From IMG/VR virus record IMGVR_UViG_3300046804_002588, positions 1 through 20,957 of that record: a stretch of DNA of 20,957 nucleotides. One strand, written 5' to 3'. This stretch comes from a virus. Shown here one piece after another: positions 1,479 to 17,312 of the stretch. The notes under the pieces are model-generated. The model was not told the DNA's origin, ran no database searches, and saw only the letters and a list, made by a program, of their open reading frames with translations. The position numbers and the translations under genes were made by a program. The stretch's first letter is position 1; each line of letters begins with the position of its first letter.

Positions 1479-1967
1479 TTAGTAGTTCAATACACAGTAG
1501 TCCATTCCAAGTGTCACTGTAAGGTTAACTGCAGCTGCATCCGTATCCCAGTTATATTCACCAAAGTTAGCTGTTTTAATAAATGCTCCTTCTAGAATCC
1601 ATTGAGAAACGATATCACCTACAGGACCTAGTACGTTAACGGTACAACGCTTTTTATAGAAGTCAGAGTATCCATCACGTCCTGTTACTGATTCATGGTG
1701 AAGACGTACCCATTCCATTACTGCTTGAGCTCCTGATGGTGTGATTGGATCAAACAGAGTCAACGTAACATCACTCCAGTTAGCTCTTCCTTTAATCTTA
1801 CGGTATACGTTAATATGATTTAGCTTGATTTCACCTTGTTCTACAGTAATAGCAGACATCCCTTTAATCATGAAAGCAGGAATACCGTCTACTGTGAAAT
1901 AGAATCTGTTTGCTACCTTTGGTTCAAAAGGTGTAAACAGCATCTGATTTGAATCTAATATTGCCAT
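1479..1967 (-). CDS. 19: Tail tube protein (T4 gp19-like)
   Basis: The 162-aa protein has the size of T4 gp19 (163 aa) and its style of sequence. The N-terminus resembles a gp19 tube monomer (PKVANRFYFTVDGIPAFMIKG), the middle has INVYRKIKGRANWSDVTLTLFDP, and the end is beta-rich with NLTVTLGMDYC. Gp19 polymerises in hexameric rings around the tape measure to form the inner tube through which DNA passes. The gene sits directly downstream of the sheath gene in the standard 18-19 order and is followed by a strong terminator. The ATG at 1967 is preceded by an A/T-rich leader with a TATTTATA element 16 nt upstream, so the tube may be transcribed separately from the sheath as well as together with it. 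Confidence 0.93.
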   Translation of the reverse strand: MAILDSNQMLFTPFEPKVANRFYFTVDGIPAFMIKGMSAITVEQGEIKLNHINVYRKIKGRANWSDVTLTLFDPITPSGAQAVMEWVRLHHESVTGRDGYSDFYKKRCTVNVLGPVGDIVSQWILEGAFIKTANFGEYNWDTDAAAVNLTVTLGMDYCVLNY

Positions 1968-2005: not shown

Positions 2006-4132
2006 TTATGCTGGGAATGTTGCTCCGGTGGGTAGTACGTTGAAATCTAGTAGAATGAATTCGGCAGTTTTAGTTGGCTGTAAGTAGATTTGACCTACAA
2101 GTTGATTTCTGTCGATTACATCTGCTGTATTATTAGTATCATCCATTACTACTTTGAAAGCATATAAGCCTTGTCTCTGCTGTACTGATTGTAGGTAAGG
2201 ATTAACCTGTGCAAGGAAAGCATCTCTAGTTGCCATTGTATTCTGTTCGAATACCAAGTTGTTAGCAATTTGAGAGATGTAGCTCTTAACTGCAATTAAC
2301 AATCTACGTACGTTTACTCGATCAAGTGCTGATGCTTGTTTCTGTAATGTTTTCTGTCCGTATACTACTACTCCTGTTCCAGGGAATGTAGCGATTGGGT
2401 TAACATTACCGACGTATAGAGTATCTCTGTCAGATTGAGAAAGTTTTCTTTCTGCTTGAATTGCTGCTGCTAGACCTCCTCTATTAATACCTGCAGGTGC
2501 AAACCATGGTTCAGATACGTTATCGGTGAAGGCATATACAGAAGGAATCAAAGTAGAAGCTGGTACCCATACAATCTTACCTGCATCTGGGTCTAATGTT
2601 TGGATCCAAGGCCAGTAAGTTGCTGCGTAGCTATTATTTAGAGTTGAAGCATTAGCTACTACAGTTCCTATATTTGCTCCGTAGTTAGCAACGTCTACAA
2701 CTGCTAAAGCATCTCCTCTATTTTGTGCTGTAGAGATTAGCTGATTCACTGCGCTAACGCTTGTAGAACCTTGTCCGTAGTTTACTCCTGGTATAGTGAT
2801 TACATTGTATTTGTAATCATCTGTGTTAGATAGTAAGTTAATAGATTGAGTGTATCTACCTGCTGTCAAACCTTGAATATTACCATCAGATACATTTTGG
2901 TACATGTTAGGTGTCGAGGTATATAGTCGACCTGTTGCACCTTCAAAGCATCCGGATGCTGCAAGAGGAATAGAACTGCTGTAAGAGTTACCTGCAGCGT
3001 TGTTATTTACTCCTCCGTTTGAGTTTAAGTAAGCTGGAGTTGCGTAGTTTACTCCGCTAACTCTTACGTATCTACTTTTATTTGTATAAGTCCCTACTGT
3101 CTGTACGTAAGTATTACCTGTTGTACTATCAGTTAAGACGTTAAATGTTTGATTACCGATTACAGATTCAATGTAATTAGGAGAATATGGATCTAAAGAT
3201 AAATTTGTCCATGTTTCTAATACTGTTGGATTTGAAGTAGTATCATTACCTTGTCTGATTAGTAGAGAGAATGTACCAGAAGCTGTGTCTGGAGCTACAA
3301 CCTGCCATCTTATATTGTTTGCAGATCCGGATACTAATAATCCATTAACTCCGTTAGATCCGCTATTATTCATTATATCTCCTTCACCTAGAGTTTCTAA
3401 AGTAAATGCTACCGCAGTTACTGGATCTGTTCCTCCTGTTAAAGTTCCAAGAGAAGTATATGTTCCAATAGGTACTACTGCATTAGAAAAATCAACTCCA
3501 TTGTAGGATGTTCCTGCTGCTCCTGCAGTTATTTTCATTGTTAATCCCGGTATATTCGCTGAACCAGAAAAAATACTAAGTATTGAAGTATTGATCTTAG
3601 TAACTAAGTTAGTGATTGAATCGTCTAAGTTACTTCCTGATTGAAAATAAAACTGAGGGGATGCATCAGGAGGTAAAAATCCTGCTGGCATGGATGTAAA
3701 CTTATAATCTACACCTCCGTACGGTAATCTATAAGTATATCCTGCGGAAAATTCGTATAATGTGTAGTCTAAATCCCCAGTTGTTGCTTTTGTACCTGCT
3801 ACTGCAATTTCATTATTACTTATTTGAGTGCTGGTTGCAGGAGTAAAATCTTCTGGTGTGATTCTAGTTACAAGTAAGGTATCTCCTCCGTTATTAAAGT
3901 AATTATATGCTGCTATTGAAGTGAAGTAAGAATAAGAAGCTCCACCGCTTGTAAATGTTCCTCCGAATTTGCTTAAATAATCTGAGTAAGTGGTTACAAG
4001 TGTTGGGATACCGACTCTACCTTTTACTGTTGGTCCAATAATAGCTGCACCTGCTGTGATAGGTCCTTGGGTTATAAACGATTGATCGTTTTCTCTAGCT
4101 AAGACTCCAGGAGATAATAAAGTTTCTGCCAT
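2006..4132 (-). CDS. 18: Contractile tail sheath protein (T4 gp18-like)
   Basis: The 708-aa product is somewhat longer than T4 gp18 (659 aa). The N-terminus MAETLLSPGVLARENDQSF and the GPITAGAAIIGPTVKGRVG stretch match the start of myovirus sheath proteins. The C-terminal domain (about residues 480-708) has the conserved sheath core, including WPWIQTLDPDAGK, VRRLLIAVKSYI and the closing IYLQPTKTAEFILLDF. The sheath polymerises around the tube and contracts to drive injection. Residues about 157-238 (3419-3664) form an inserted beta-rich module that resembles part of the neighbouring 583-aa lectin-like protein. The middle region up to residue 450 is Gly/Ser/Asn-rich and probably surface-exposed. 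The start has an A-rich leader and a TATTTATA element 15 nt upstream. Confidence 0.95.
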   Translation of the reverse strand: MAETLLSPGVLARENDQSFITQGPITAGAAIIGPTVKGRVGIPTLVTTYSDYLSKFGGTFTSGGASYSYFTSIAAYNYFNNGGDTLLVTRITPEDFTPATSTQISNNEIAVAGTKATTGDLDYTLYEFSAGYTYRLPYGGVDYKFTSMPAGFLPPDASPQFYFQSGSNLDDSITNLVTKINTSILSIFSGSANIPGLTMKITAGAAGTSYNGVDFSNAVVPIGTYTSLGTLTGGTDPVTAVAFTLETLGEGDIMNNSGSNGVNGLLVSGSANNIRWQVVAPDTASGTFSLLIRQGNDTTSNPTVLETWTNLSLDPYSPNYIESVIGNQTFNVLTDSTTGNTYVQTVGTYTNKSRYVRVSGVNYATPAYLNSNGGVNNNAAGNSYSSSIPLAASGCFEGATGRLYTSTPNMYQNVSDGNIQGLTAGRYTQSINLLSNTDDYKYNVITIPGVNYGQGSTSVSAVNQLISTAQNRGDALAVVDVANYGANIGTVVANASTLNNSYAATYWPWIQTLDPDAGKIVWVPASTLIPSVYAFTDNVSEPWFAPAGINRGGLAAAIQAERKLSQSDRDTLYVGNVNPIATFPGTGVVVYGQKTLQKQASALDRVNVRRLLIAVKSYISQIANNLVFEQNTMATRDAFLAQVNPYLQSVQQRQGLYAFKVVMDDTNNTADVIDRNQLVGQIYLQPTKTAEFILLDFNVLPTGATFPA

Positions 4133-4179: not shown

Positions 4180-5931
4180 TTAGTAATATAATAATCCGGA
4201 AGAGGAGGGCGGTACTTCAAACCATCCTGCAGCTGCGGAACTAGAATAGAAGTTGTTAAATACACTATAAGGTGCTATTGGTTCATTTGAAGGTTTTTTA
4301 TTTCCGTATCGAGCTTTTAAAACGTCGTAATGTTGTGCTATTTCTGCCTGTGTCAAAACTTTATTATAGATGTAAGTAGTTCCTAGCATTCCAATAGTAT
4401 GTGTTAGATCTCCTGCTTGTGATCCTATAGCTAAAGCATTCTGTACTGTGGAATTGATCTTGTAGTTAGTTATATTTCTAATAAACCAAGGTTCTGTAAA
4501 GTTACCAGTACCTACTCTATTAACCCCTCCTGCTAAAGGTGTTACAAGGTCTACTGTTCCAGTAGATCCGGAATATACTAATTTATATCCAGAGTTGGTA
4601 GTGTTGTAGGCTGTTCCGTTTGCTGATGCAGATATAGCAAAAGGCTGCCCTGCTATTCCTATAAATGATGATGTAAACCAAGCAGATAAAGTCGGACTAT
4701 TCTGTATCTTACTATTTAGATTTATCATCGTTTCTAGAAAATCTGATCCTGAAGGGAAGTAGAAATATCCTCCTGTAATTACATCAGCGGCTATAGTCGT
4801 CACTACGTCTGATGGATTACCTGATTTAGTCGGGAACATTCTAAAAGTTTTCGGGGAAAGTCCGCCGAAAGATGAGGTAAATATAAAAGCGTTTTTCCAT
4901 GTTGCTCCAGTGTCTATACCTCCTACCGTACTTATAGACGTTTCTATAGTGTTTACGTTAGTACTTCCTGTTGCTGGTGTTCCTGGTATTATCGTTGAGG
5001 TTGATGCAGATTCTGCCCATAAGTAAGCTCCGTTAGAGTATATAGATGCAGTTACCGTAGTTGTAGTTTTACGTAATGTAAAAGCTGCACAATTCCATGT
5101 ATCAGCTGTAGCATAAATTTCCTTACCTTTGAAAGCTGAAGCTTGTAATTGTCTATGTACGTAGGGGTAATTTTCCCAGGTAGTTTTTCTATCTGTGTAA
5201 TTTACCTGTATACTTGCACTAAAAGTTCCATCTCCGTTATTTATTGTCCGCCAGGTCATCGGTTGCTGTACTGTCAAAGAGTCTACACGTAAGACGTACG
5301 GTATAGTTTCAAAAGGAGTTCCTCCGGTACGGCTGGTATTCCATCCTCCTGCAAATACATTACCTATTCTAAATGTTTGTGAATCTCTAAAGTTGAAGGC
5401 TGCTGCACTTCCTCTACCTATATTTTGAATTCCGCTAGGTGTTCCTCTAACAAACATAAATCTTGTACTTTGTCCTGCGTTCAAGCCTGCAAATGGGTAA
5501 CTTATAGGTACAATAAAACCTGTATACCATACTAAAATAGTCATTTCATCTTGTATATTGTCTGCAAGATGGTTAAAAGCTGATCCGGAAATGAGGTAGT
5601 ATGTTTGCTGTGACATAGGATCGATAGCAGATGCTGTAGTAGCTATCGTGTAATTTCCTCCTGTAGGATAAGGGGCGGGAAGTACTGTTGCTCCGAGCCG
5701 TAAAATTATACCATTATCTGGGTAGGTAGTAAAACTTCCAGTACCTTTTATCAGGCGTGGAGGTATAACAACTCCGCTCGGGTTTGTAGAAGTTTTAGCT
5801 GTAAAGATTGTATCTTGTGGATCTACTACGAGTACTAATGCATCCTGTGCAGGAAGTGCTGGTCCTATATTAACCTTACCGCTTCCTGTTATAGAGATTT
5901 GTCCGTACTGTCCGTTTATCTTTATTGGCAT
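4180..5931 (-). CDS. Lectin-like (concanavalin/LamG fold) virion surface protein
   Basis: This 583-aa beta-rich protein has features of a concanavalin A-like jelly roll. About residues 125-165 (DEMTILVWYTGFIVP, then AGQSTRFMFVRG) look like one half. Residues about 510-543 (IGMLGTTYIYNKVLTQAEI, then LKARYG) are typical of the end of a LamG-type domain. Between them, residues about 389-471 form a module that resembles an insertion in the tail sheath. The C-terminus is Ser/Pro/Tyr-rich (PPSSSGLLYY). There is no signal peptide or membrane segment. Its start is 7 nt after the stop of the 427-aa gene, so the two are probably co-transcribed and co-translated. A glycan-binding decoration or fibre role is inferred from the fold and the position next to the sheath; no catalytic residues were recognised. 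Confidence 0.6.
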   Translation of the reverse strand: MPIKINGQYGQISITGSGKVNIGPALPAQDALVLVVDPQDTIFTAKTSTNPSGVVIPPRLIKGTGSFTTYPDNGIILRLGATVLPAPYPTGGNYTIATTASAIDPMSQQTYYLISGSAFNHLADNIQDEMTILVWYTGFIVPISYPFAGLNAGQSTRFMFVRGTPSGIQNIGRGSAAAFNFRDSQTFRIGNVFAGGWNTSRTGGTPFETIPYVLRVDSLTVQQPMTWRTINNGDGTFSASIQVNYTDRKTTWENYPYVHRQLQASAFKGKEIYATADTWNCAAFTLRKTTTTVTASIYSNGAYLWAESASTSTIIPGTPATGSTNVNTIETSISTVGGIDTGATWKNAFIFTSSFGGLSPKTFRMFPTKSGNPSDVVTTIAADVITGGYFYFPSGSDFLETMINLNSKIQNSPTLSAWFTSSFIGIAGQPFAISASANGTAYNTTNSGYKLVYSGSTGTVDLVTPLAGGVNRVGTGNFTEPWFIRNITNYKINSTVQNALAIGSQAGDLTHTIGMLGTTYIYNKVLTQAEIAQHYDVLKARYGNKKPSNEPIAPYSVFNNFYSSSAAAGWFEVPPSSSGLLYY

Positions 5932-5938
5932 GATAGTA

Positions 5939-7222
5939 TTATAAACTGTACCATGTATTATTACCGTCGCTTACATATCTAGATGCGCTCGTAGGTCCTA
6001 GTGATGCTATGCCGTTGATTGATCCGCCTGCAGCTGATACATTAACTGTTCCTGTGCTTGTGTTGCCATTTTTTACTATGTAATACCTACCTGGTCCTGT
6101 TGTATTAGGATTAGGTAGTGTTACGGGTCCTGTTGATACTATAATTAAATCTGTAATACCTGCTGTCTTTCCTGTTGTTACTACTATCGGTAAAGACATA
6201 CTACCGGAAGCAATGTTAAATGAACTTGACAAATTAGCATTTAATCCTGTTCCGTTTCCGCTAACCCCGAAATAATTAACTGTAGGGTTATATCCAACTT
6301 CTACAATCGGAATTCCAGATGGACTTTGTACAGATAAAATTGAATTAGTTACTGCATTTGTTACTTCAAAAGATCTACCGTTGCTATTTTCTACATAAAA
6401 TATAGATCCGGAAACTGTTGTTGGGTTTTTAACAGCTAAGTTTCCATTCTGTACATCTAAAGCTTCTCTAGGAGTCCAGGTATTAATACCGATCTGTCCT
6501 GATGAAGATATTGCAAAAGATCTACTTTGTGCATTAGTAGCTACTTTCATTACATACTCGTCACTTGACGATACTAGTAATGTAGCTGCACTTGGAGTGA
6601 AAGAAGGTAGAGATGTTATAAATGATCCTGAAAATAATGATCCAGTATTTACTGCTGTAGATGCTCCTATACCTACTCTAGGACTATTTGCTCCTAAAAT
6701 TAGATAATCTCTAAACTGGCTTCCTCCAAAAGTTAGAGAGTTTCCATTATTAATAGATTGTGTAAAGGAATGTGCGATTAGCCCTACACTTCCTGATCCT
6801 GTTACAATTGTACCTAAACTTCCAAAAGCTAAATTTTGACGTGCTAGTATATTAGAACCTGTCACTCTTAACCCTTGTACTTCTGTAGAAGCTGAGATAA
6901 AGCTTGAAGTTAAAGAAGCAGTTACGTAAAATCTATTAAATATACCTGCAGATCCTGTTGTATTTCCTACGATATATAATTCATTACTTGCAGTAATTCC
7001 ATTAGCCCCTATTAAACCTTGAGTAAATGTTGCTAACTTATTTGCAGTAATGCTTGTGCTGTCTACGTAAATTGTATTTGAAGCAACATCTAAAGTACCG
7101 GCAATAACTATATCGTTAGCAGTAGTTCCATCCAATGCATAGAGTATAGGTCTAACGTGTTCATATTCAACGATATTTCCCGTAAATATGGGATTGGTAC
7201 TGCCGGTACTTATTTTTGCCAT
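5939..7222 (-). CDS. Tail fibre / receptor-binding-type structural protein
   Basis: The 427-aa product is dominated by short beta-strand repeats with Thr-Gly-Ser, Ser-Gly-Ser and Asn-Gly turns (VTASLTSSFISAS, IVTGSGSVGL, SGSMSLPIVV), typical of trimeric phage fibres. The C-terminal part (about 380-427: PGRYYIVKNGNTSTGTV..., SRYVSDGNNTWYSL) resembles a module I associate with the ends of many marine-phage fibre proteins. A stretch around residues 235-260 (SSGQIGINTWTPREALDVQ) resembles the 'GIGT..P...LDV' motif of fibres that carry intramolecular chaperone-type tails, but no Ser-Lys chaperone dyad is evident. It lies between the 82-aa coiled-coil gene and the lectin-like gene with very short gaps, suggesting one operon. 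The receptor is unknown. Confidence 0.65.
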   Translation of the reverse strand: MAKISTGSTNPIFTGNIVEYEHVRPILYALDGTTANDIVIAGTLDVASNTIYVDSTSITANKLATFTQGLIGANGITASNELYIVGNTTGSAGIFNRFYVTASLTSSFISASTEVQGLRVTGSNILARQNLAFGSLGTIVTGSGSVGLIAHSFTQSINNGNSLTFGGSQFRDYLILGANSPRVGIGASTAVNTGSLFSGSFITSLPSFTPSAATLLVSSSDEYVMKVATNAQSRSFAISSSGQIGINTWTPREALDVQNGNLAVKNPTTVSGSIFYVENSNGRSFEVTNAVTNSILSVQSPSGIPIVEVGYNPTVNYFGVSGNGTGLNANLSSSFNIASGSMSLPIVVTTGKTAGITDLIIVSTGPVTLPNPNTTGPGRYYIVKNGNTSTGTVNVSAAGGSINGIASLGPTSASRYVSDGNNTWYSL

Positions 7223-7228
7223 GTTCTA

Positions 7229-7477
7229 TTAGTTCTTAATGAATTCTCCTGATTCCAATGAGATTGTTCCGTTTCCGTACTTAGTGCTCAATTCCTCATA
7301 GATCTCGTGTTCTTGCTTACGTAGCTCTGCTACTTTCACTTTTAAACTTTCTTTGTAAGTGTTTAGTTCCATAATTTGAACTTCTGTTACACCTACATTG
7401 GTAGTTAAAATGCCGAACTGTTCGCGAAGATCTTTGATTTTTTGCAACTCATCTTCTGTCAATTTGATGTTTTCCAT
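7229..7477 (-). CDS. Small coiled-coil protein of unknown function
   Basis: This 82-aa, highly charged protein runs as one long predicted helix or helical hairpin (ELQKIKDLREQFGILTTNVG, then ELNTYKESLKVKVAELRKQE) and ends in a short beta-like tail, GNGTISLESGEFIKN. I recall similar small helical proteins with a closing 'G.I.l.sGEF' from marine T4-like phage structural clusters, without a known role. It opens a short run of three genes (82, 427 and 583 aa). Its start is preceded by GATATTTATTAAAGAAAAG, a near-match to the recurring intergenic element. It could be a structural spacer, an assembly factor or a regulator; the sequence does not decide. Confidence 0.7.
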   Translation of the reverse strand: MENIKLTEDELQKIKDLREQFGILTTNVGVTEVQIMELNTYKESLKVKVAELRKQEHEIYEELSTKYGNGTISLESGEFIKN

Positions 7478-7500: not shown

Positions 7501-9726
7501 TTATAAGTTTGAAGTTGTTTCTGTTAATATAATGATTTGAGATTTAGAAAGCAACTTTTTAGTTGCTAAAAGATCTTTTTGTATAACATCAGGAATTAAG
7601 TACCCGTTTAGTCTAATTGTAAATGTTGATTTAGAGACTCTATCTGTTCCTGAGGTTGGTACTTCTGTAACTGTTGTTATACTATCTATCATAGCTCTAA
7701 ACTTAAACCTTTCCGGATCTCCCCAATAGCTATCTGATGCATAATTCATAGCTTCTATGACTTTGTTCATCTGTTCTATGTAGTAAGTCATTATAGTACA
7801 GCTATAAGTAAGAGTTACGTAATCAGGTACCACTATAACATAGTTCTCTTTTACAGGTACTCTATTGTTTACTATATCAAAATTACTATATGCATTTTTT
7901 GAAGAATACTTCTTAGTAGATATTTGATAGAGGTTAGGGGAATTAGCGTCGAGCTTATTGCCAATCGTCCTTACCTTATCCAGACTATCTCTTTTAAACA
8001 TGATAAGGGGACACATGATCTTTCCATTCTTATCCCTATAGTATCCGTCTGCCTGTACTGCTTTCCATTTTTCAGGATTTCCATATATTACAGGAATTGA
8101 AATACGTTCTCCGTTTTGAATAACGAAAGGTTTTATGACGTTGTCTATATAGTACATTATAGACTGGTCAATATCTTCTATCCCTAGTGAGAATGGTTTT
8201 GTAGAGTCTCCTTTAAACGAAACATCTTGACCTCTGTTTATATTTACAGCATCATTAGGATTACCTGTAGCTTTATCATAAGGTTCCTGCCATTCTCTAG
8301 ATATCTCTCTTTGAGTTTTTGGAATAGGTTTTCCTACTTTTTTATTTGCTGCTCTTTTATTCGCTCTGTCAGTTTGTAATTCCGAATACGCTGAGGTTGG
8401 TTGTGCACTCTCAGGAATAAAAGGAGGTGTGGGAGTATTCTGCTCTACCGGATTTGAAAGCATTAATAGCCTAGATTCAAAAAGAGCAATACCCTCCGGT
8501 ATTACATTCGTATAAATTGTAGTATTAGTTTCCGTATCCCATACTGAATTTTGAGGATATCCTGCGTTTAATTGTCTTGCCCAGTTTTCATAAGTTTGCT
8601 GTAGAGAGAAGTTGAAAGGGATGGCTGCAGAAAATTTAGTTCCCATGAAATCCTCAGAGTAATTTAAATCTACTACATTATAATTTGTTCCGTTGAATCC
8701 TCCATTTCTATTCCAGGGGTTAAGTTTACTTTCTGCTGAAAATATAGGAAGTATTTTAGCTTGTCTTGAAGTGCCGCTGTATGCATTTGCTATATCGAGC
8801 ATTCTATGTAAACTTTCATCACCTCTTGTGTATGTGTAAAGTCCCCAATCCTCTCCTGTATTCGAACTGCTTACGTAAGTAGATACTAGCCACCTATCTG
8901 TATAGTTTACATACAGCTGTGGGTCTGTAGAACTGTAATTAGGACCTTTTCCTAAGTATATGTTTATTTCTAACGGAGTGTTTAACTGTGTTGTTTCAGG
9001 ATTTCTTAATTGTTGATTTGCATACCCTAAAACACCCTGTACTTCATATTTATCAGATTCTGGAGAGGCTTGCCACCATTCTACTTCTGTTGTTATACTG
9101 TTAAAGCTTCCGGATAAAAAATTATTACTTTCACACCATAGGTTATAATCTCGTATTTGATTTACCTGTGTTTGACCTGAATTGTAGCTATCCCATCCTC
9201 TTGCTGCGGAGATATGCTCTACACCATTCAGTTTAGCTTTAGCTATAAAATTCTTAAGCATTAACTTACCTGGAGCTGTTACTGTTCCAAGTCCGTTATT
9301 ACTCCAATCCATAAAGTTCAATTCGTAGAGAATTAAAGCATTTATGTTTTGAGTTTGACAAAAAGAAATTAATCTATTTTCTTCTCCGGTATTTCCTAAT
9401 ACTGATTGTGACTGGTTAGCGTAGATTATTGCTGTTGCAGGAGATCCTCCTCCCGGTGTTGGGAAAGTAACTGTTGGATTACTATAACCGGATCCTCTAG
9501 ATGCAACGAATAATCCTTCTGCTTGTCCAGTTCCTGTATTAATGTTAAGTACTACATTTCCTCCTGTACCTCCTCCTGTCAATGTTCCGGATACAAAAGG
9601 TTGAGTATACCCGGACCCGGAAGTTAATAAGGCAGGAGCTGCTAAAATCCCGTCTGTTCTCGCTATAAAAGGAGTTACGTATAGGAATCTTTTTTCTGTT
9701 GTTAACGGTGCTTGATTTGGATTCAT
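7501..9726 (-). CDS. gp15-like tail completion/sheath-stabiliser protein fused to a glycosidase-like barrel
   Basis: At 741 aa this is far longer than T4 gp15 (272 aa). The C-terminal part, about residues 515-741, looks gp15-like: SIMYYIDNVIKPFVIQNGER, ISIPVIYGNPEKWKAVQ, CPLIMFKRDSL, VPVKENYVIVVPDYVTL and a closing FTIRLNGYLIPDVI. Gp15 caps the tail and links it to the neck. Residues about 30-105 carry two GSGYT/GSGYS beta repeats rich in Gly. Residues about 109-425 alternate hydrophobic strands with helices like a TIM barrel (INALILYEL, VEHISAARGW, ITTEVEWW, LEINIYLGKG, WLVSTYV, AKILPIFSAE). The acidic pair Glu214/Glu216 after the fourth strand recalls glycoside hydrolases, but activity is only inferred. 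A Pro/Gln/Arg-rich linker follows (about 428-510). The stop of the gp14-like gene is 2 nt upstream of the start, and gene order 13-14-15 supports the gp15 call. Confidence 0.7.
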   Translation of the reverse strand: MNPNQAPLTTEKRFLYVTPFIARTDGILAAPALLTSGSGYTQPFVSGTLTGGGTGGNVVLNINTGTGQAEGLFVASRGSGYSNPTVTFPTPGGGSPATAIIYANQSQSVLGNTGEENRLISFCQTQNINALILYELNFMDWSNNGLGTVTAPGKLMLKNFIAKAKLNGVEHISAARGWDSYNSGQTQVNQIRDYNLWCESNNFLSGSFNSITTEVEWWQASPESDKYEVQGVLGYANQQLRNPETTQLNTPLEINIYLGKGPNYSSTDPQLYVNYTDRWLVSTYVSSSNTGEDWGLYTYTRGDESLHRMLDIANAYSGTSRQAKILPIFSAESKLNPWNRNGGFNGTNYNVVDLNYSEDFMGTKFSAAIPFNFSLQQTYENWARQLNAGYPQNSVWDTETNTTIYTNVIPEGIALFESRLLMLSNPVEQNTPTPPFIPESAQPTSAYSELQTDRANKRAANKKVGKPIPKTQREISREWQEPYDKATGNPNDAVNINRGQDVSFKGDSTKPFSLGIEDIDQSIMYYIDNVIKPFVIQNGERISIPVIYGNPEKWKAVQADGYYRDKNGKIMCPLIMFKRDSLDKVRTIGNKLDANSPNLYQISTKKYSSKNAYSNFDIVNNRVPVKENYVIVVPDYVTLTYSCTIMTYYIEQMNKVIEAMNYASDSYWGDPERFKFRAMIDSITTVTEVPTSGTDRVSKSTFTIRLNGYLIPDVIQKDLLATKKLLSKSQIIILTETTSNL

Positions 9727-10582: not shown

Positions 10583-11731
10583 TTATCCAATATAAATTGT
10601 AAACGGCACTTGTCCAAATTCTTGAGTTCTAAACTCTGCTTCATCTTTTCTTCTTTCTAGTAATGCTTTTCTTGAAGTCTCGTCAAGGAAAAGGCGAAGT
10701 CTTTCTATTAGAGCATTCTTCTCTGCTGTAGCAGCAGTTATTAAATCTCCTTGATTCAACGTTACAGAATCTCCGGGTATAGGTAGGGAAGTATACTTAC
10801 CTCTTACATATCCTAACATCTCTTTTACTAGTGCTAAAGTATATTCGAATATCCATTGTCTACCTACTGAGTTAATTGACATATAGGTCGGGTTAGCATA
10901 CGGTACTTTAGATATATCAGTAATTAAGTTATCTCCTGTTTGTAAACTTCCTGTAAATCTATCTGATTTAAGTATGTATTGGAAGAATAATCTTCTACTT
11001 TTTCCGTCTGGTATAGGGAATATACGCAGTTGATTATTTATTAATTCAAAACTGTAGTTAGATTTTCTTACCTGATCGTTAAATTCAATAGCTTGTATTT
11101 TCTGTAAGTCGTAATTGATAGGCATTAAGAGGAAATTTAAACCTGGGGAGTAGTTACCAAAGTCAAATGCATCCATTAATCCTTGTATGTCTACTCCAGT
11201 ACCCGCATAAGGGTCAAAGTAACGTACAATAGCAGGTGTGGATTCGTAGAAGATCCTTTTAATTTCTAAATCTCCTTGAGTTATTCCGCTAGCTGAAGCC
11301 CAGGCATTTAAGTCATACTGCTGCTGTCCTGATATGAGGTCAAGAGATCCGGTACGCCATGTTACTAATCCTCCTACTCCTGCTTCTGTACCGTACTGCT
11401 CTGATTGACGTATCAATACTCCCATATTAGGGTTTACTACGGCATTATTAAGTTCTATTTCAGTTGAACCTCCTTCTAACGATAGGTAATTCTCTCTAAC
11501 TTTATATGCATACATTTCATTACCGTATGTTGTAACGGCTTCTTCAAATGCTGTATAAAAGTTTATGTCCTGTAATTCTACATCTACTAAAGGGTATCCA
11601 AGTCTTTGTGCACAAAACCTTGCTACTCTATCTGCATCAAATTGAAATTGAGAATCGTAATCGTAGAAGCCGAAAGGTGTTTTTCCTGCTGAGAAGCTGG
11701 AACTCCCAGGCCATATAGATATAAATGCCAT
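10583..11731 (-). CDS. 13: Neck / head-completion protein (T4 gp13-like)
   Basis: The 382-aa product is somewhat longer than T4 gp13 (309 aa). Residues about 29-80 (FDADRVARFCAQRLGYPLVD, then INFYTAFEEAVTTYGNEMY) fit the helical start of gp13-like neck proteins, in which a 'RLG.P...vev' segment is followed by an acidic helix. The C-terminal part (about 285-382) has a helical stretch WIFEYTLALVKEMLGYVRGK, the region after which gp13-type proteins describe their last conserved block. Gp13 binds the portal and, with gp14, closes the filled head. The gene leads the 13-118aa-14-15 cassette. Its start codon lies inside a perfect 9-bp inverted repeat, and a TATTTATA element is 11 nt upstream. Confidence 0.78.
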   Translation of the reverse strand: MAFISIWPGSSSFSAGKTPFGFYDYDSQFQFDADRVARFCAQRLGYPLVDVELQDINFYTAFEEAVTTYGNEMYAYKVRENYLSLEGGSTEIELNNAVVNPNMGVLIRQSEQYGTEAGVGGLVTWRTGSLDLISGQQQYDLNAWASASGITQGDLEIKRIFYESTPAIVRYFDPYAGTGVDIQGLMDAFDFGNYSPGLNFLLMPINYDLQKIQAIEFNDQVRKSNYSFELINNQLRIFPIPDGKSRRLFFQYILKSDRFTGSLQTGDNLITDISKVPYANPTYMSINSVGRQWIFEYTLALVKEMLGYVRGKYTSLPIPGDSVTLNQGDLITAATAEKNALIERLRLFLDETSRKALLERRKDEAEFRTQEFGQVPFTIYIG

Positions 11732-11770: not shown

Positions 11771-13492
11771 TTAATTCAATGAGCTAGATCTCCACTGTCC
11801 TCCTAACCATACAAACATTGCAAATCCGTTTGAACCACTTCCGAATAGGAACTGTCCTTCTGATGCTTGGAATGATGGAGTAGGGGTTGTGAAAGATCCT
11901 GTAGGAGTTATTAAAGTTCCTGATACAAAGTTAAATGTTGATAGTGATCCGGACACTGTTAATGATCCGGTCATACTGCTATTACCTAACGTATTTGATG
12001 TACCTACTACGTTAAGTCCAGATTGTGATACTATCAATGATCCTGTTACATTGGTATTACCTAAAGATCCAGAATCTAAGTTAAGTGCAGAAAGTCTCAC
12101 ATACCCTGCTCCCATATCTCCTCCTCCGTATGGCTGGTATGCAGCTAAGAAGAAGTTAGGTGATGAAGATAAGTCTCCTACATAAGCAGTATTTGTTAAT
12201 ACTGTGGCATTTAGATTTAATGCTCCTCTTAATGTTAAGTTATCAGAATGTAATGTTACTGCAGATCCTGAAGCTATTAGTGAACCGGATATTGTTTGAT
12301 TTCCTATAAAGGTGTTGGATCCAGTAGTTACTAAGGTACTGTAGTTTGTAGTCTGTGTTACGTCTACCTGTATACTTCCGCTAACTAGGGAAGGTTTTCC
12401 TGAAACATTTGCAAAAGCTACAGAATTTGCAGATAGTGCACTACTTGCCCACGAAGATGTGCCGTTAAGACTTCCTGTAAAGCCGTTAAATGAGCTTACG
12501 GAGCCAGTGAACATATGTCCTGCAGTTCCTGCATAGTATCTTATTCCGGCATTTGTTACATTTTCTGTTACAAGATTAGCATATAACCCTTTAGATTGGC
12601 TTATTACTAGATCTGCATTCACAGTCTGTTGTGCTGTGAAGGTATTAGATCCTGTAGAAGCTAAAGTATAACGTACTGATTCAAATATTGGATCTGTTTC
12701 TGATCCTCCAATATGTGGAAATGGTGAAGTTCCAACCTGTCCTGAAGCTGAATCGTATGACATCATCCTGAGGGTTGTTCCTCCTAGTAGCGGTAATGCA
12801 TCTAAGTTAGCACTAATATACTCAGACCCTGTTATTGCTATGTTAGTTCCTTCTAGGTAAACGGTATTACCGTGTATAGTTAGTATATCGGATCCAGGGT
12901 TAATTACACTTCCTCCGTCTGTGGATAAAGTTAATCCATCTCCTCTTACCGAAATAGGCATACTGTAGTTCTCTCCTCCTAAGAACATGTTATTATCAGA
13001 ATGTCTATATTCCAAAAGGATGCCGTTAGCTCTATCAGTATACTGAGTTGCAGCATTGATAACAAATACCGGCCCTAATAATCCATCAGGGTCTCCGTCT
13101 TCGTATGTATGCCCTACCCATGCATTATAGGCTTGATCTGATCCATGATCTCCTCTCCATTGAGTAAGGAAATGTAGTCCACTTCCGGAAGCTGGTGTTG
13201 TATTTATATTACTTCCTAATCCAAATACGTTTATATTTCCTCCAAGATTACCTATACCTGTCGATCCGCTACTAAAAAACGTATCACTTGTTACTTCAGT
13301 TAGAAAAGTTTGAGTTGGGTACCCGCCTATATTTAATGCACTTTCTTCATCTACTGTAACAGTCCCTGATAGAGTGCTTGCACTATCGCTAGCTATAGCA
13401 CCTTTTAGGTAAAGTGATCCAGTGATCGTACTATTACCTGCAAGGATTGTTAAGGTATCTCTTGTAAAATTTAAAATTGGATATTGATTCAT
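11771..13492 (-). CDS. Gly-Ser-rich tail fibre protein
   Basis: This 573-aa fibre has repeated ITGSL, VSGSL and SGSLIASGS turns, with modules of the type 'NTFTAQQTVNADLVISQS' and 'NTFIGNQTISGSLIASGS' in the middle and C-terminal third. The motif GGSETDPIFESV also occurs, as ESDPVFNSF, in the upstream 1264-aa fibre, so the two genes share modules. The closing GFAMFVWLGGQWRSSSLN looks like a compact tip domain. Residues about 95-215 are aromatic/Asp/Gly-rich (THYEDGDPD-type loops) and may be an exposed head domain. No signal peptide or chaperone motif is seen. Transcription continues from the 1264-aa gene with a 25-nt gap and no terminator. It probably binds the host surface; the receptor is unknown. 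Confidence 0.65.
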   Translation of the reverse strand: MNQYPILNFTRDTLTILAGNSTITGSLYLKGAIASDSASTLSGTVTVDEESALNIGGYPTQTFLTEVTSDTFFSSGSTGIGNLGGNINVFGLGSNINTTPASGSGLHFLTQWRGDHGSDQAYNAWVGHTYEDGDPDGLLGPVFVINAATQYTDRANGILLEYRHSDNNMFLGGENYSMPISVRGDGLTLSTDGGSVINPGSDILTIHGNTVYLEGTNIAITGSEYISANLDALPLLGGTTLRMMSYDSASGQVGTSPFPHIGGSETDPIFESVRYTLASTGSNTFTAQQTVNADLVISQSKGLYANLVTENVTNAGIRYYAGTAGHMFTGSVSSFNGFTGSLNGTSSWASSALSANSVAFANVSGKPSLVSGSIQVDVTQTTNYSTLVTTGSNTFIGNQTISGSLIASGSAVTLHSDNLTLRGALNLNATVLTNTAYVGDLSSSPNFFLAAYQPYGGGDMGAGYVRLSALNLDSGSLGNTNVTGSLIVSQSGLNVVGTSNTLGNSSMTGSLTVSGSLSTFNFVSGTLITPTGSFTTPTPSFQASEGQFLFGSGSNGFAMFVWLGGQWRSSSLN

Positions 13493-13517
13493 ATTTTTAT
13501 TCTTTTCTATTTAAGTA

Positions 13518-16500
13518 TTAAACTCCATATCTAGCAGATTCACAAACCCATGCGTTACCTGATCCTGACATGTTTAAGTAGATGTATTTATATACTCCAT
13601 TTGGTATATTTTCTAACAGGTAACCGAATTGAAATACACTCGTAGTTGGATCTTCAATCAATGCATTTGCACAAGAGAAATTAGTTGTGCCTATGCCCTG
13701 TGGTGAACTAGCATTTTGAACTACAACTGTAAATGTAAGTCCATAGTCTGCAGATTGAGATCCTGGGAAGTGTATGGTTCTTCCAGCTAGTGAATATGAA
13801 GATTTGGCATGTACTACGTTAGATCCTGATGTAACAATAAAGCCGGTGCTAGTTTCTGTAACTTTCTTACGTACCATTCCTGCTTCGTATGATCCGGAGA
13901 GGAATGTTATCCTACTAGCATCGTTACCTGTAATCCCCGGTGCTACAGCTAGTTGTCCGAATATCTGATGGTACCCATTAGGTGAAGATGAAGAAATGTA
14001 TATACCTATGCCTCCCTGTACATTTAAAGGCCTTGCTAAGGTATTAGCCTGGTATATGTATAGTGCAGGTGCATCTATGTTAGAACTTGAAATAAATGTA
14101 CTGTTAATTATAGTATTTATTCCTGTTACTGTATTATCTTTAGCTACCGTGACGGTATTGCCGTACCCTCCTGCACTTGAAGATACATAAAGTGATCCTG
14201 TGATCTGTACCGTAGAAAATCCTCCAGAAGTAAATAATGTTTTATTAACTGAATCAAAAATCCAGTACCCGTCTTTATTTGCATTAATTGAAGAAGTTAA
14301 CATTCTTTCAAATCTACCTGTAGTAGGATTTATTGTAAGTACTACACTTTCAGATGCAAACGGTATAGATCCGGTAGCAACAAATAAACTGCCAGTTATT
14401 ACCTGTGTTCCTGTAAATGCGTTTGAAGCGGTAGTTGCAAAAGATCCGGTTTTGTTGTTTATAGATTGAGTATAATTATTGAGACTTGTAATAGTTGCGT
14501 TTACGCTTGAAGTGTAGTTTAAAATACTTGCGCTAAAGTTTAGAATGCTGCTGCTAAAGTTTAGAATGCTAGCACTAAAATTATTAATACTTGAAGTATA
14601 AGCATTAAAAGAAGATGTTGTAACAAATGAACTAGTAGTATTATTAATAGATTGAGTGTAGTTATTTAGTCCTGCTATTGTAGTATTGACGCTTGAAGTG
14701 AAGCTTAACATACTACTGCTAAAGTTCAAAATACTTGCACTAAAATTATTAATACTAGAAGTATAAGCATTGAAAGAAGATGTTGTAACAAAGGAGCCTG
14801 TTCTATTATTAATAGATTGAGTGTAATTGTTCAGGCCGGCTATAGTAGTGTTTACACTAGAAGTATAATTTAAAATACTTGCACTAAAGTTTAGAATGCT
14901 AGCACTGAAACTATTAATACTAGAAGTATAGTTATTAAATGAAGATGTAGTTACGAATGATCCTGTTAATCTATTTGGTAAGAATGAGCTTGAGAAACTA
15001 TTAAATACCGGATCTGATTCTATGAACTGTGCTCTTTGTAACTGTCCTGTTGAAGTATTTATAACTATGAGTTGTGGATTATTATTTCCAGAGCTTATTG
15101 TTGTACTAGGTACTCCTGAAAGTTGTAATATAGTAGATCCGGATATAGTCACGTTTCCTACTACCCTATGTGAAGAACCGCTAGCTGTTAAAGATCCGGA
15201 TATTGATACTGCTCCGGTAGAGGAGTTGTAGTTAAATCTTGTAGCACCTCCAAATGTTCCGTTATCGTTAAATTGTATGTTTTGATTAACACCTCCGGGG
15301 GATGTTGATCCACCACCGCCTCCTACCGCAATTGAAGATGTGTTCATCAACTGTATTTGACCGGTAGTAGGGTTATAAGTCAATACTGCACTTTGAGATT
15401 CAAATGGTAAATATCCTTGACCTGGCTGTACGAATAGGGATCCAGAGAATCTTACCTGTCCTGTATGTCCTTCTATAAGATTATGTCTATCTACTTCTGA
15501 TGTTCCATCTCCTAAAATCCACAGTGCTTGAGATCCTGACAGGTTGTATTTGCCTTGTGCATGTTGACCCTCTCCTGATGCTATTGTAAATAGTCCTTCT
15601 GCATGTGAAGCAAACCCGTTAGCTCTTGAACCGGAACCTTCAGCGTGAGAGTAGCTTCCATTAGTCATCGTGCTGTAGCCTTCAGTATGTGAAAATCCTC
15701 CGTTAGCTACCGTGCTGTAGCCTTCAGCATGGCTGTATTGTCCGTAAGCTCTAGTGTTGTATCCCTCTGCATGCGAATAAGGTCCGTTAGCTTGAGACTC
15801 GTTACCTTGTGCGTGGGAATAAGCGCCTTCTGCTAAGGTATTATACCCTTCAGCATGTGCTCCAGTTCCAGTAGCTTCTGTATACGCTCCATGTATAAAG
15901 GAGTAATCTCCTTTAGCTGCATTATAATTTGGAAATTGTGTATTGTTGGACTGTCCGAAAGCTACAGCGTAGAGTCCTGATGCTAATACATCAGTTCCTA
16001 CTTCTAATCTACCTGTCAATTTAACCTTTGGATTCACAGTTCCTGCAGTCGTCGTGTCATTATACCTGTATTGAAATGCGTATGCCAGGTTAGAAGCTCC
16101 TTGGAAAGTATTATTTTGATTAAACTGGATATCATAATTTGTACCTCCGGGAAGTGCTGATCCTCCTCCTCCTCCTCCGCCTAGTGCTGCAAGACCTACT
16201 TGAAATACTCCTGTTCCGGTATTACCAGATCCCGACTGTACTGCTAGGGCATAATCTGGTCTGTTTAATATAGGAAAAGTACTTTGACTTGCAAAGAATA
16301 GGACCTGGTCTAAAAAAAACTGGGATTGTGGAATATTATCTCTTGCTCCTGCAATACGTATTTGTTTTCTAGCAGCTAGAAGTATTTGAGAATCATTTGC
16401 ACTGGTTGCTGTATTGGGAGTATAATCGCTTAACTGAATTCCGGATACTATTGTAATATCTTGAGCTGCTTGTATAGTAGTCTGCCCTTGACCTATAGGT

Positions 16501-17312
16501 TCAAGAGTTCCTAAAATATAAATACCTCTTTTAGTGCTAAATTGCATTAATGCTATTTGATTTGTAAAATTAGTAGGAATATTCCTATTTGATAGTACTT
16601 GTAGTTGAAAAGACTTACCGTAATAATTGTTCGGATCATTGTTCCAATCGTCCATTACAAATCTTACACCTCTCAATGACATATCTCTCAGTACGGTTGT
16701 CGGTGTTCTATCATATCCGTAGAGATTTATCCCAGGAGCAGTAACGTTATTAAATCCAGATTCCCATGGATTAGATGCTCCTGCCTCGTAAGAGGTCATC
16801 CCCATACCTGAGCTGAAGATGGTTAGATTATTTCGGATATTGGTAGCGTAATTCCAATCCCTATCTATTATGATCGATCCTAATGCTGTAGCAGGATTCG
16901 CTGTAAGATTTCCTCCTATTACTAGTCCATTATTACCCGGTATATGTGTGATACCTCTTAACTGGTTAAAAGTAGATCCATCATTCTCAACTAAGAAAGA
17001 TCCAGATATAATTAAAGAAGGGTTAGGTGCAAAACTGGCATTATTACCTACAGGCCAAGTCCCTAGTCCGCTTGTTTCTCCTATTACTACTAATGAAGCA
17101 GAAGCGTAGTCGTAAACTGCTCTTAACTGTGGTGTTGTAGATAACGTAGCTGGATTAAAAGTTCGTATAATTCCTTGTGTTAGGATGTTTCTTTGTCCTA
17201 TTGGTATCAAAGACATAGATCCGGAGACACTTGCCGCTCCTTCTATTACGTTTTCAACTCCGGAAAGGAATGTTGTTTGTCGGAATAATCCACTGTATAT
17301 TGCACCGCTCAT
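13518..17312 (-). CDS. Giant fibre/adhesin with YadA-like head repeats and heptad stalk
   Basis: The 1264-aa protein is the largest in the window. Residues 1-375 are a beta-rich N-terminal region with Gly/Asn turns. A seven-Gly linker (about 376-383) and an IQFN..NTFQGA segment follow. Residues 468-593 are nine consecutive 14-residue repeats of the form 'YSHAEGYxTxAxG' (GYNTLAEGAYSHAQG, GYNTRAYGQYSHAEG), the repeat of YadA-type trimeric adhesin heads. A second Gly linker and a second IQFN..GTFGGA segment precede residues 784-955, a triple tandem repeat of 55-62 residues built of ILNFSAS-type heptads that would make a trimeric coiled-coil stalk. The C-terminus (about 1120-1264) is a compact beta tip ending in CESARYGV. 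A terminator and TATTTATA-like element lie upstream. It is probably a trimeric host-binding fibre. Confidence 0.75.
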   Translation of the reverse strand: MSGAIYSGLFRQTTFLSGVENVIEGAASVSGSMSLIPIGQRNILTQGIIRTFNPATLSTTPQLRAVYDYASASLVVIGETSGLGTWPVGNNASFAPNPSLIISGSFLVENDGSTFNQLRGITHIPGNNGLVIGGNLTANPATALGSIIIDRDWNYATNIRNNLTIFSSGMGMTSYEAGASNPWESGFNNVTAPGINLYGYDRTPTTVLRDMSLRGVRFVMDDWNNDPNNYYGKSFQLQVLSNRNIPTNFTNQIALMQFSTKRGIYILGTLEPIGQGQTTIQAAQDITIVSGIQLSDYTPNTATSANDSQILLAARKQIRIAGARDNIPQSQFFLDQVLFFASQSTFPILNRPDYALAVQSGSGNTGTGVFQVGLAALGGGGGGGSALPGGTNYDIQFNQNNTFQGASNLAYAFQYRYNDTTTAGTVNPKVKLTGRLEVGTDVLASGLYAVAFGQSNNTQFPNYNAAKGDYSFIHGAYTEATGTGAHAEGYNTLAEGAYSHAQGNESQANGPYSHAEGYNTRAYGQYSHAEGYSTVANGGFSHTEGYSTMTNGSYSHAEGSGSRANGFASHAEGLFTIASGEGQHAQGKYNLSGSQALWILGDGTSEVDRHNLIEGHTGQVRFSGSLFVQPGQGYLPFESQSAVLTYNPTTGQIQLMNTSSIAVGGGGGSTSPGGVNQNIQFNDNGTFGGATRFNYNSSTGAVSISGSLTASGSSHRVVGNVTISGSTILQLSGVPSTTISSGNNNPQLIVINTSTGQLQRAQFIESDPVFNSFSSSFLPNRLTGSFVTTSSFNNYTSSINSFSASILNFSASILNYTSSVNTTIAGLNNYTQSINNRTGSFVTTSSFNAYTSSINNFSASILNFSSSMLSFTSSVNTTIAGLNNYTQSINNTTSSFVTTSSFNAYTSSINNFSASILNFSSSILNFSASILNYTSSVNATITSLNNYTQSINNKTGSFATTASNAFTGTQVITGSLFVATGSIPFASESVVLTINPTTGRFERMLTSSINANKDGYWIFDSVNKTLFTSGGFSTVQITGSLYVSSSAGGYGNTVTVAKDNTVTGINTIINSTFISSSNIDAPALYIYQANTLARPLNVQGGIGIYISSSSPNGYHQIFGQLAVAPGITGNDASRITFLSGSYEAGMVRKKVTETSTGFIVTSGSNVVHAKSSYSLAGRTIHFPGSQSADYGLTFTVVVQNASSPQGIGTTNFSCANALIEDPTTSVFQFGYLLENIPNGVYKYIYLNMSGSGNAWVCESARYGV
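14448..14963 (-). repeat. Three tandem stalk repeats (165, 165 and 186 nt)
   Basis: Three in-frame copies start at 14963, 14798 and 14633, each beginning (G/S)SFVTTSSFN and ending NNYTQSINN. The third is 21 nt longer because it carries one extra heptad (NFSASIL). A partial fourth start (GSFATTASN) is at 14447. Inside each copy the ILNFSAS heptad recurs. The repeats encode residues 784-955 of the large fibre. Confidence 0.85.
15534..15911 (-). repeat. Nine 42-nt repeats encoding the YadA-like head
   Basis: This block is exactly 378 nt, nine units of 14 codons with the consensus (G/x)YSHAEGYxTxAxG. The copies are diverged at DNA level, so they are older than the stalk repeats. They encode residues 468-593 of the large fibre. 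Confidence 0.8.

Follow-up and report, generated by a model that had tools for sequence, protein, structure and literature searches.

In phages T4 and XM1, the tail terminator forms a hexameric ring at the top of the tail, and the C-terminus of the XM1 protein enters the sheath (PMC10457771), which would leave the N-terminus as the freer end. Carbohydrate-related domains near this position are known from the 936 lactococcal phages, whose neck passage structure proteins carry host-binding carbohydrate-binding modules (PMC6669499).

The window analysed here, a stretch of 20,957 nucleotides, is a 21 kb fragment of a phage genome. One of its genes encodes a protein that combines a gp15-type tail terminator with a glycosidase-like TIM barrel. 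This architecture, first proposed in an annotation made from the DNA alone, is supported by sequence comparison, synteny, the predicted fold of a homologue and the way the invariant acidic residues fall on strand 4 and strand 7 (Table 1). As in the 936 phages, a domain of carbohydrate-active type is found on a neck structural protein, here as read from the genes alone. However, the 936 phages have collar fibres with carbohydrate-binding modules, whereas the window encodes a complete barrel, candidate catalytic residues included, on the tail terminator itself. Domains of this type on neck proteins of virions are known already; the one encoded here lies on the tail terminator and comes from a barrel family that is in none of the libraries searched. 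The one literature library searched gave no paper describing a glycosidase joined to a tail terminator.

Table 1. Positions of the fusion gene, its parts and its neighbours in the window
Feature	Residues	Position	Strand	Basis
Fusion gene, 741 aa		7501..9726	-	Single open frame, no internal stop
Putative strand 1, KRFLYVTPF	11-30	9637..9696	-	By-eye comparison with HRGLYFSPY (L017) and IRGLYVS (L056)
GSGY beta-repeat pair, inserted after strand 1 and before helix 1	31-105	9412..9636	-	Motif positions and homologues
Rest of predicted (beta/alpha)8 barrel	106-430	8437..9411	-	Family comparison and models
Glu214-Val-Glu216, end of strand 4, candidate acid/base		9079..9087	-	Invariant glutamates
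Tyr284, end of strand 6		8875..8877	-	Invariant
Glu332 of ILPIFSAE, end of strand 7, candidate nucleophile		8731..8733	-	Invariant
Pro-rich linker, then a stretch (KPIPKTQREI) that aligns where unfused gp15 genes begin	431-470	8317..8436	-	
T4 gp15-type tail-terminator core	471-741	7504..8316	-	Homology and synteny
gp14-position neighbour, 164 aa		9729..10223	-	By synteny, counterpart of the gene that precedes gp15 in relatives; name from gene order only
gp13-position neighbour, head-tail adaptor		10583..11731	-	phrog_211
Tail sheath, gp18-type		2006..4132	-	
Tail tube, gp19-type		1479..1967	-	

The tail-terminator half

From about residue 457, the C-terminal ~285 residues are shared with T4 gp15 (PDB 3J2M, 4HUD, 4HUH), with Flavobacterium phage immuto (53% identity) and with stand-alone genes of ~295 codons on 14 IMG/VR contigs, L001-L014 (53-60% identity); two more distant phages reach 33%. 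A profile of eight gp15-type proteins had T4 gp15 as its sole match in the PDB, aligned as two collinear pieces at E 0.0023, and no gp15 family in PHROGs was returned for this half. Judged by homology, the C-terminal half is a T4 gp15-type tail terminator. The likeness to T4 gp15 suggested in the first-pass annotation thus stands, although the stretch concerned is longer than the ~225 residues given there.

Gene order points the same way. T4 gp15 and its unfused homologues share with the window the order gp13, gp14, gp15, sheath and tube, which is kept in relatives; in the window, gp15 sits between the gp14-position gene and the sheath gene, but three extra genes precede the sheath. In the 12 contigs with upstream sequence, unfused gp15 starts right at the end of the preceding gene, with MADKIRKPVPKNQREI or close variants that align to KVGKPIPKTQREI in the window. 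In L008, gp15 begins at the contig edge, again with this start, and the contig of L013 ends short of it. Every relative in which the start is covered is without the N-terminal barrel half, in contrast to the window protein, and the sequence before the gp15 core is variable among relatives. The gp15-type protein of phage immuto (L016, 11869-13260) is decorated at the opposite end, where it carries a C-terminal extension of ~150 residues.

The fusion gene itself has the features of an ordinary coding frame. Its ATG lies 2 nt past the stop of the gp14-position gene and follows a ribosome-binding-like stretch, AAAGAAAGGA. Base composition at third codon positions is low and similar throughout the 741-codon frame and the neighbour genes, as expected of a genuine long frame. 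Residues 425-523 contain no ATG, GTG or TTG codon, so the gene cannot easily yield a free gp15.

A rare family of barrel proteins

The N-terminal half has no sequence match in Pfam, PHROG, NCBIfam or the PDB. Searching IMG/VR with degenerate DNA patterns identified three further members of its family (L017, L056 and L054), all on viral contigs. L017 is a free protein of 331 aa with a signal-peptide-like N-terminus (by eye), and L056, with 256 aa, is the smallest member. L054 (2-1231) has at least 409 aa, with a Pro-Thr-rich linker before the barrel and a different beta domain apparently inserted after strand 4; its gene is cut by the contig end, so it may be a fusion too. No gp15-type match was found on the contigs of these three.

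The patterns were derived from a seed alignment of the window with designed artificial variant rows. These rows were kept out of the evidence, and natural sequences served to confirm each homologue. The spacing pattern LG[ND]-YDL-ExEFWN gave 50 matches, among which L054 and L056 are the true new members and most others apparently represent one unrelated gene. The PIFSAE pattern gave L017 plus chance matches only. Exact-peptide scans with the barrel alone returned nothing from IMG/VR or a bacterial genome collection, a further scan of that collection with degenerate patterns found no barrel relative, and tblastn of the barrel against phages and plasmids gave insignificant matches only. The family is described in none of the libraries searched.

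On sequence comparison, membership of the window's N-terminal half in this family is solid. It matches L017 with E 3e-9 over 331 residues (hhalign: probability 96%, E 3e-9), and shuffle tests of the barrel half gave Z 17.8 against L017 and Z 13.9 against L056, compared with about -1 and 0 for the gp15 half used as a control. The tie between L054 and the window, as judged by shuffle tests and hhalign, runs via L017 and L056 alone, with a direct Z of 1.8 and an L017-L054 Z of 13.9. Identities among the four members are near 25%, and the signature of the family reads LGNxxxEN ... TExEFW ... YV ... PIFSAE.

The predicted fold is clearest in L056. Modelled with a five-row alignment that included the window, it shows all eight beta-alpha units (pLDDT 80, pTM 0.83), while the model of window residues 1-455 is of low confidence (pLDDT 43, pTM 0.41) and has a strand/helix alternation as in a barrel. 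By family membership and the L056 model, the N-terminal half is a predicted (beta/alpha)8 barrel, in line with the earlier proposal of a glycosidase-like barrel in the ~400 residues before gp15; neither a barrel-free prediction nor placement in a purely structural neck family was obtained.

With VIA-align, the best solved match of the L056 model was Cwp19 of Clostridioides difficile, a GHL10 barrel (PDB 5OQ2, 5OQ3), at Z 15.2 and 3.5 A over 228 residues, followed by GH66, GH5, GH20, GH18 and GH1 at Z 13-14. The matches were mostly glycoside hydrolases, with homocitrate synthase close behind at Z 13.4, so the fold alone does not fix the chemistry. The top Foldseek matches were likewise a mixture of barrel enzymes. 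For the low-confidence window model, the VIA-align list was headed by an alpha-glycosidase and otherwise made up largely of GH1 and GH10, but scores of Z 5.5-7 carry too little weight to be used.

The window protein has GSGY at positions 37 and 78, and the GSGY[T/S] form is found nowhere else in the window, which bears out an earlier remark on a pair of beta repeats near the N-terminus. The repeats are absent from L017 and L056, in which a short hairpin joins strand 1 to the LGN helix, and tblastn of the GSGY segment against phages gave no match. Strand 1 is IRGLYVS in the L056 model; that of the window was not placed by the automatic alignment. Because the repeats lie between RFLYVTPF and the LGN helix, where L056 has its hairpin, they form an insert in the loop between strand 1 and helix 1. 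With strand 1 matched by eye, this would put the pair on the catalytic, substrate-binding face of the barrel.

Candidate catalytic residues

When the family alignment is placed on the strands of the L056 model, Glu214, Glu216, Tyr284 and Glu332 are invariant in all four members. In most members strand 4 ends in TExE[F/W]W, and strand 7 runs into PIFS[A/S]E. The acidic TTEVEWW motif, which had been noticed after the fourth strand, aligns with TELEFW at L056 residues 110-115, at the C-terminal end of strand 4 (107-112), so that both Glu214 and Glu216 map to the strand end.

The same strand 4, 6 and 7 positions hold active-site residues in GH42, and the strand 4 and strand 7 glutamates are the catalytic pair in GH5, while a Gly replaces the strand 7 Glu in GHL10 (PMC5765458). 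Cwp19 shares with the window family the acidic residue on strand 4 and the Tyr on strand 6, but at only 14-15% identity, and the family has an invariant Glu in place of the GHL10 Gly. Given the match to GH42 at all three positions and to GH5 at strands 4 and 7, the family looks like a two-glutamate glycosidase, with a modelled layout nearer to these enzymes than to Cwp19.

Clan GH-A (GH5, GH42, GH1, GH10) shares with the family the (beta/alpha)8 fold, the glutamates on strands 4 and 7 and the Tyr on strand 6, but there is no detectable sequence similarity. In this clan, an Asn typically precedes the acid/base Glu of strand 4. The family lacks this Asn (the window reads Thr213-Glu214-Val215-Glu216), and the DxDxE of GH18 is also absent from strand 4, where the members have VVTELE, LLTEYE, FNKENE and ITTEVE. 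For these two reasons, the family was filed neither in clan GH-A nor in GH18. Pfam gave no glycoside hydrolase match for the window, L017, L056 or L054, nor did NCBIfam for the window or L017. A comparison by hhalign with E. coli DigH, which we take to be a GHL10 protein, and with ChiA, each as a single sequence, gave no match.

Genomic neighbourhood

Between gp15 and the sheath gene, where relatives such as L001 have a gap of only ~60 bases, the window carries three genes on the minus strand (4180-7477; 82, 427 and 583 aa), a possible adhesion cassette. Two of them look fibre-like or lectin-like, and the 583-aa product has a weak LamG-like match. The lineage appears to add adhesive modules beside gp15, and this favours a glycan-related role. 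Relatives of the 82-aa protein are found at other positions in L010, L033 and L034.

Other genes were noted near the neck genes of the window and its relatives. Between its PhoH and gp13 genes (11771-17312, minus strand), the window encodes two long, fibre-like proteins rich in Gly and Ser, of 573 and 1264 aa, the longer with AEGYxTxAxGxYSHAEG repeats like those of trimeric autotransporter heads. In L009, the neck cluster is broken by an HNH-endonuclease-like gene (by eye; 6707-7462) directly ahead of the gp14-position gene, and in L034, a 484 kb uncultured phage, a TnpB-like gene (by eye; 694-2016) lies just upstream of the neck genes.

Possible functions of the fusion

The explanation that we favour, at about even odds, is that a terminator has gained a glycoside-hydrolase-like barrel that is displayed at the neck and cleaves host-derived polysaccharide. 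The tail terminator would have acquired an N-terminal (beta/alpha)8 domain with GSGY modules in its first catalytic-face loop. If it assembles as the hexamers of T4 and XM1 do, as many as six barrels would ring the neck, where they could bind and cleave surface or matrix polysaccharide of the host by a retaining two-glutamate mechanism, with one strand 4 Glu as acid/base and Glu332 as nucleophile. The GSGY modules might serve as substrate-gripping or shielding lids. Action on glycans might then aid passage of the virion through glycan layers, or its hold on them, beside receptor binding by the baseplate. As the relatives are without the barrel half, this phage may show six glycan-processing or glycan-binding domains at its neck. 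An enzyme function of the barrel half is likely; that it acts on host surface glycans is our hypothesis. Against this explanation, TIM barrels serve many reactions, and a long distance separates the neck from the cell surface. Its fullest form, in which a new family of active glycosidases, rare in phages, sits on the terminator so that six enzymes ring the neck and cut host or matrix glycans, is more tentative, and we consider it somewhat improbable as a whole.

In the closest rival explanation, the barrel could be a dead or never-catalytic carbohydrate-binding decoration that gives weak adhesion at the neck, like concanavalin B and chitinase-like lectins, and inactive barrels are indeed among the top structural matches (concanavalin B and XAIP, each Z 13.7; tamarind chitinase-like lectin, Z 12.9). 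The inserted genes next to gp15 also look adhesive (the weak LamG-like match lies at 4180-5931). Binding-only descendants usually lose catalytic residues, however, whereas all four divergent members, the window included, retain both glutamates of strand 4 together with the Tyr of strand 6 and the Glu of strand 7. We regard pure binding as unlikely, despite the precedent of neck-mounted carbohydrate-binding modules in the 936 phages (PMC6669499). The barrel might instead hydrolyse peptidoglycan or cell wall, either after being brought into the envelope or during assembly or lysis, and not act on exopolysaccharide. This would agree with the best structural match, as Cwp19 is reported to lyse Micrococcus cells (PMC5765458), and with the signal-peptide-like N-terminus of the free L017 protein. 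Yet a tail-terminator ring does not enter the cell when the tail contracts, the Gly of Cwp19 at the strand 7 position implies a different chemistry, and the comparison with the single DigH sequence gave no match. We consider this role quite improbable.

Slightly less probable still is an incidental fusion by stop loss, with the barrel as a passenger that is cleaved or tolerated and a normal gp15 encoded elsewhere in the genome. A 21 kb fragment leaves room for a second gp15, and the variable N-terminus before the gp15 core looks permissive. Against this, conservation of the fused gp15 equals that of its free counterparts, a Pro-rich linker joins it to the barrel, residues 425-523 have no internal start codon, and third-position composition is similar over the whole frame.

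Implications

In phages, the usual places to look for depolymerases and glycosidases are tail spikes, fibres and baseplates. If a catalytic-type barrel is indeed carried by a tail terminator, the neck would be added to these as a site of glycan processing. The fusion would also mark an insertion point on gp15, and the barrel would define a new protein family with clear residues to mutate. It would offer a way to test directly if host glycans are acted on by neck decorations or only bound by them.
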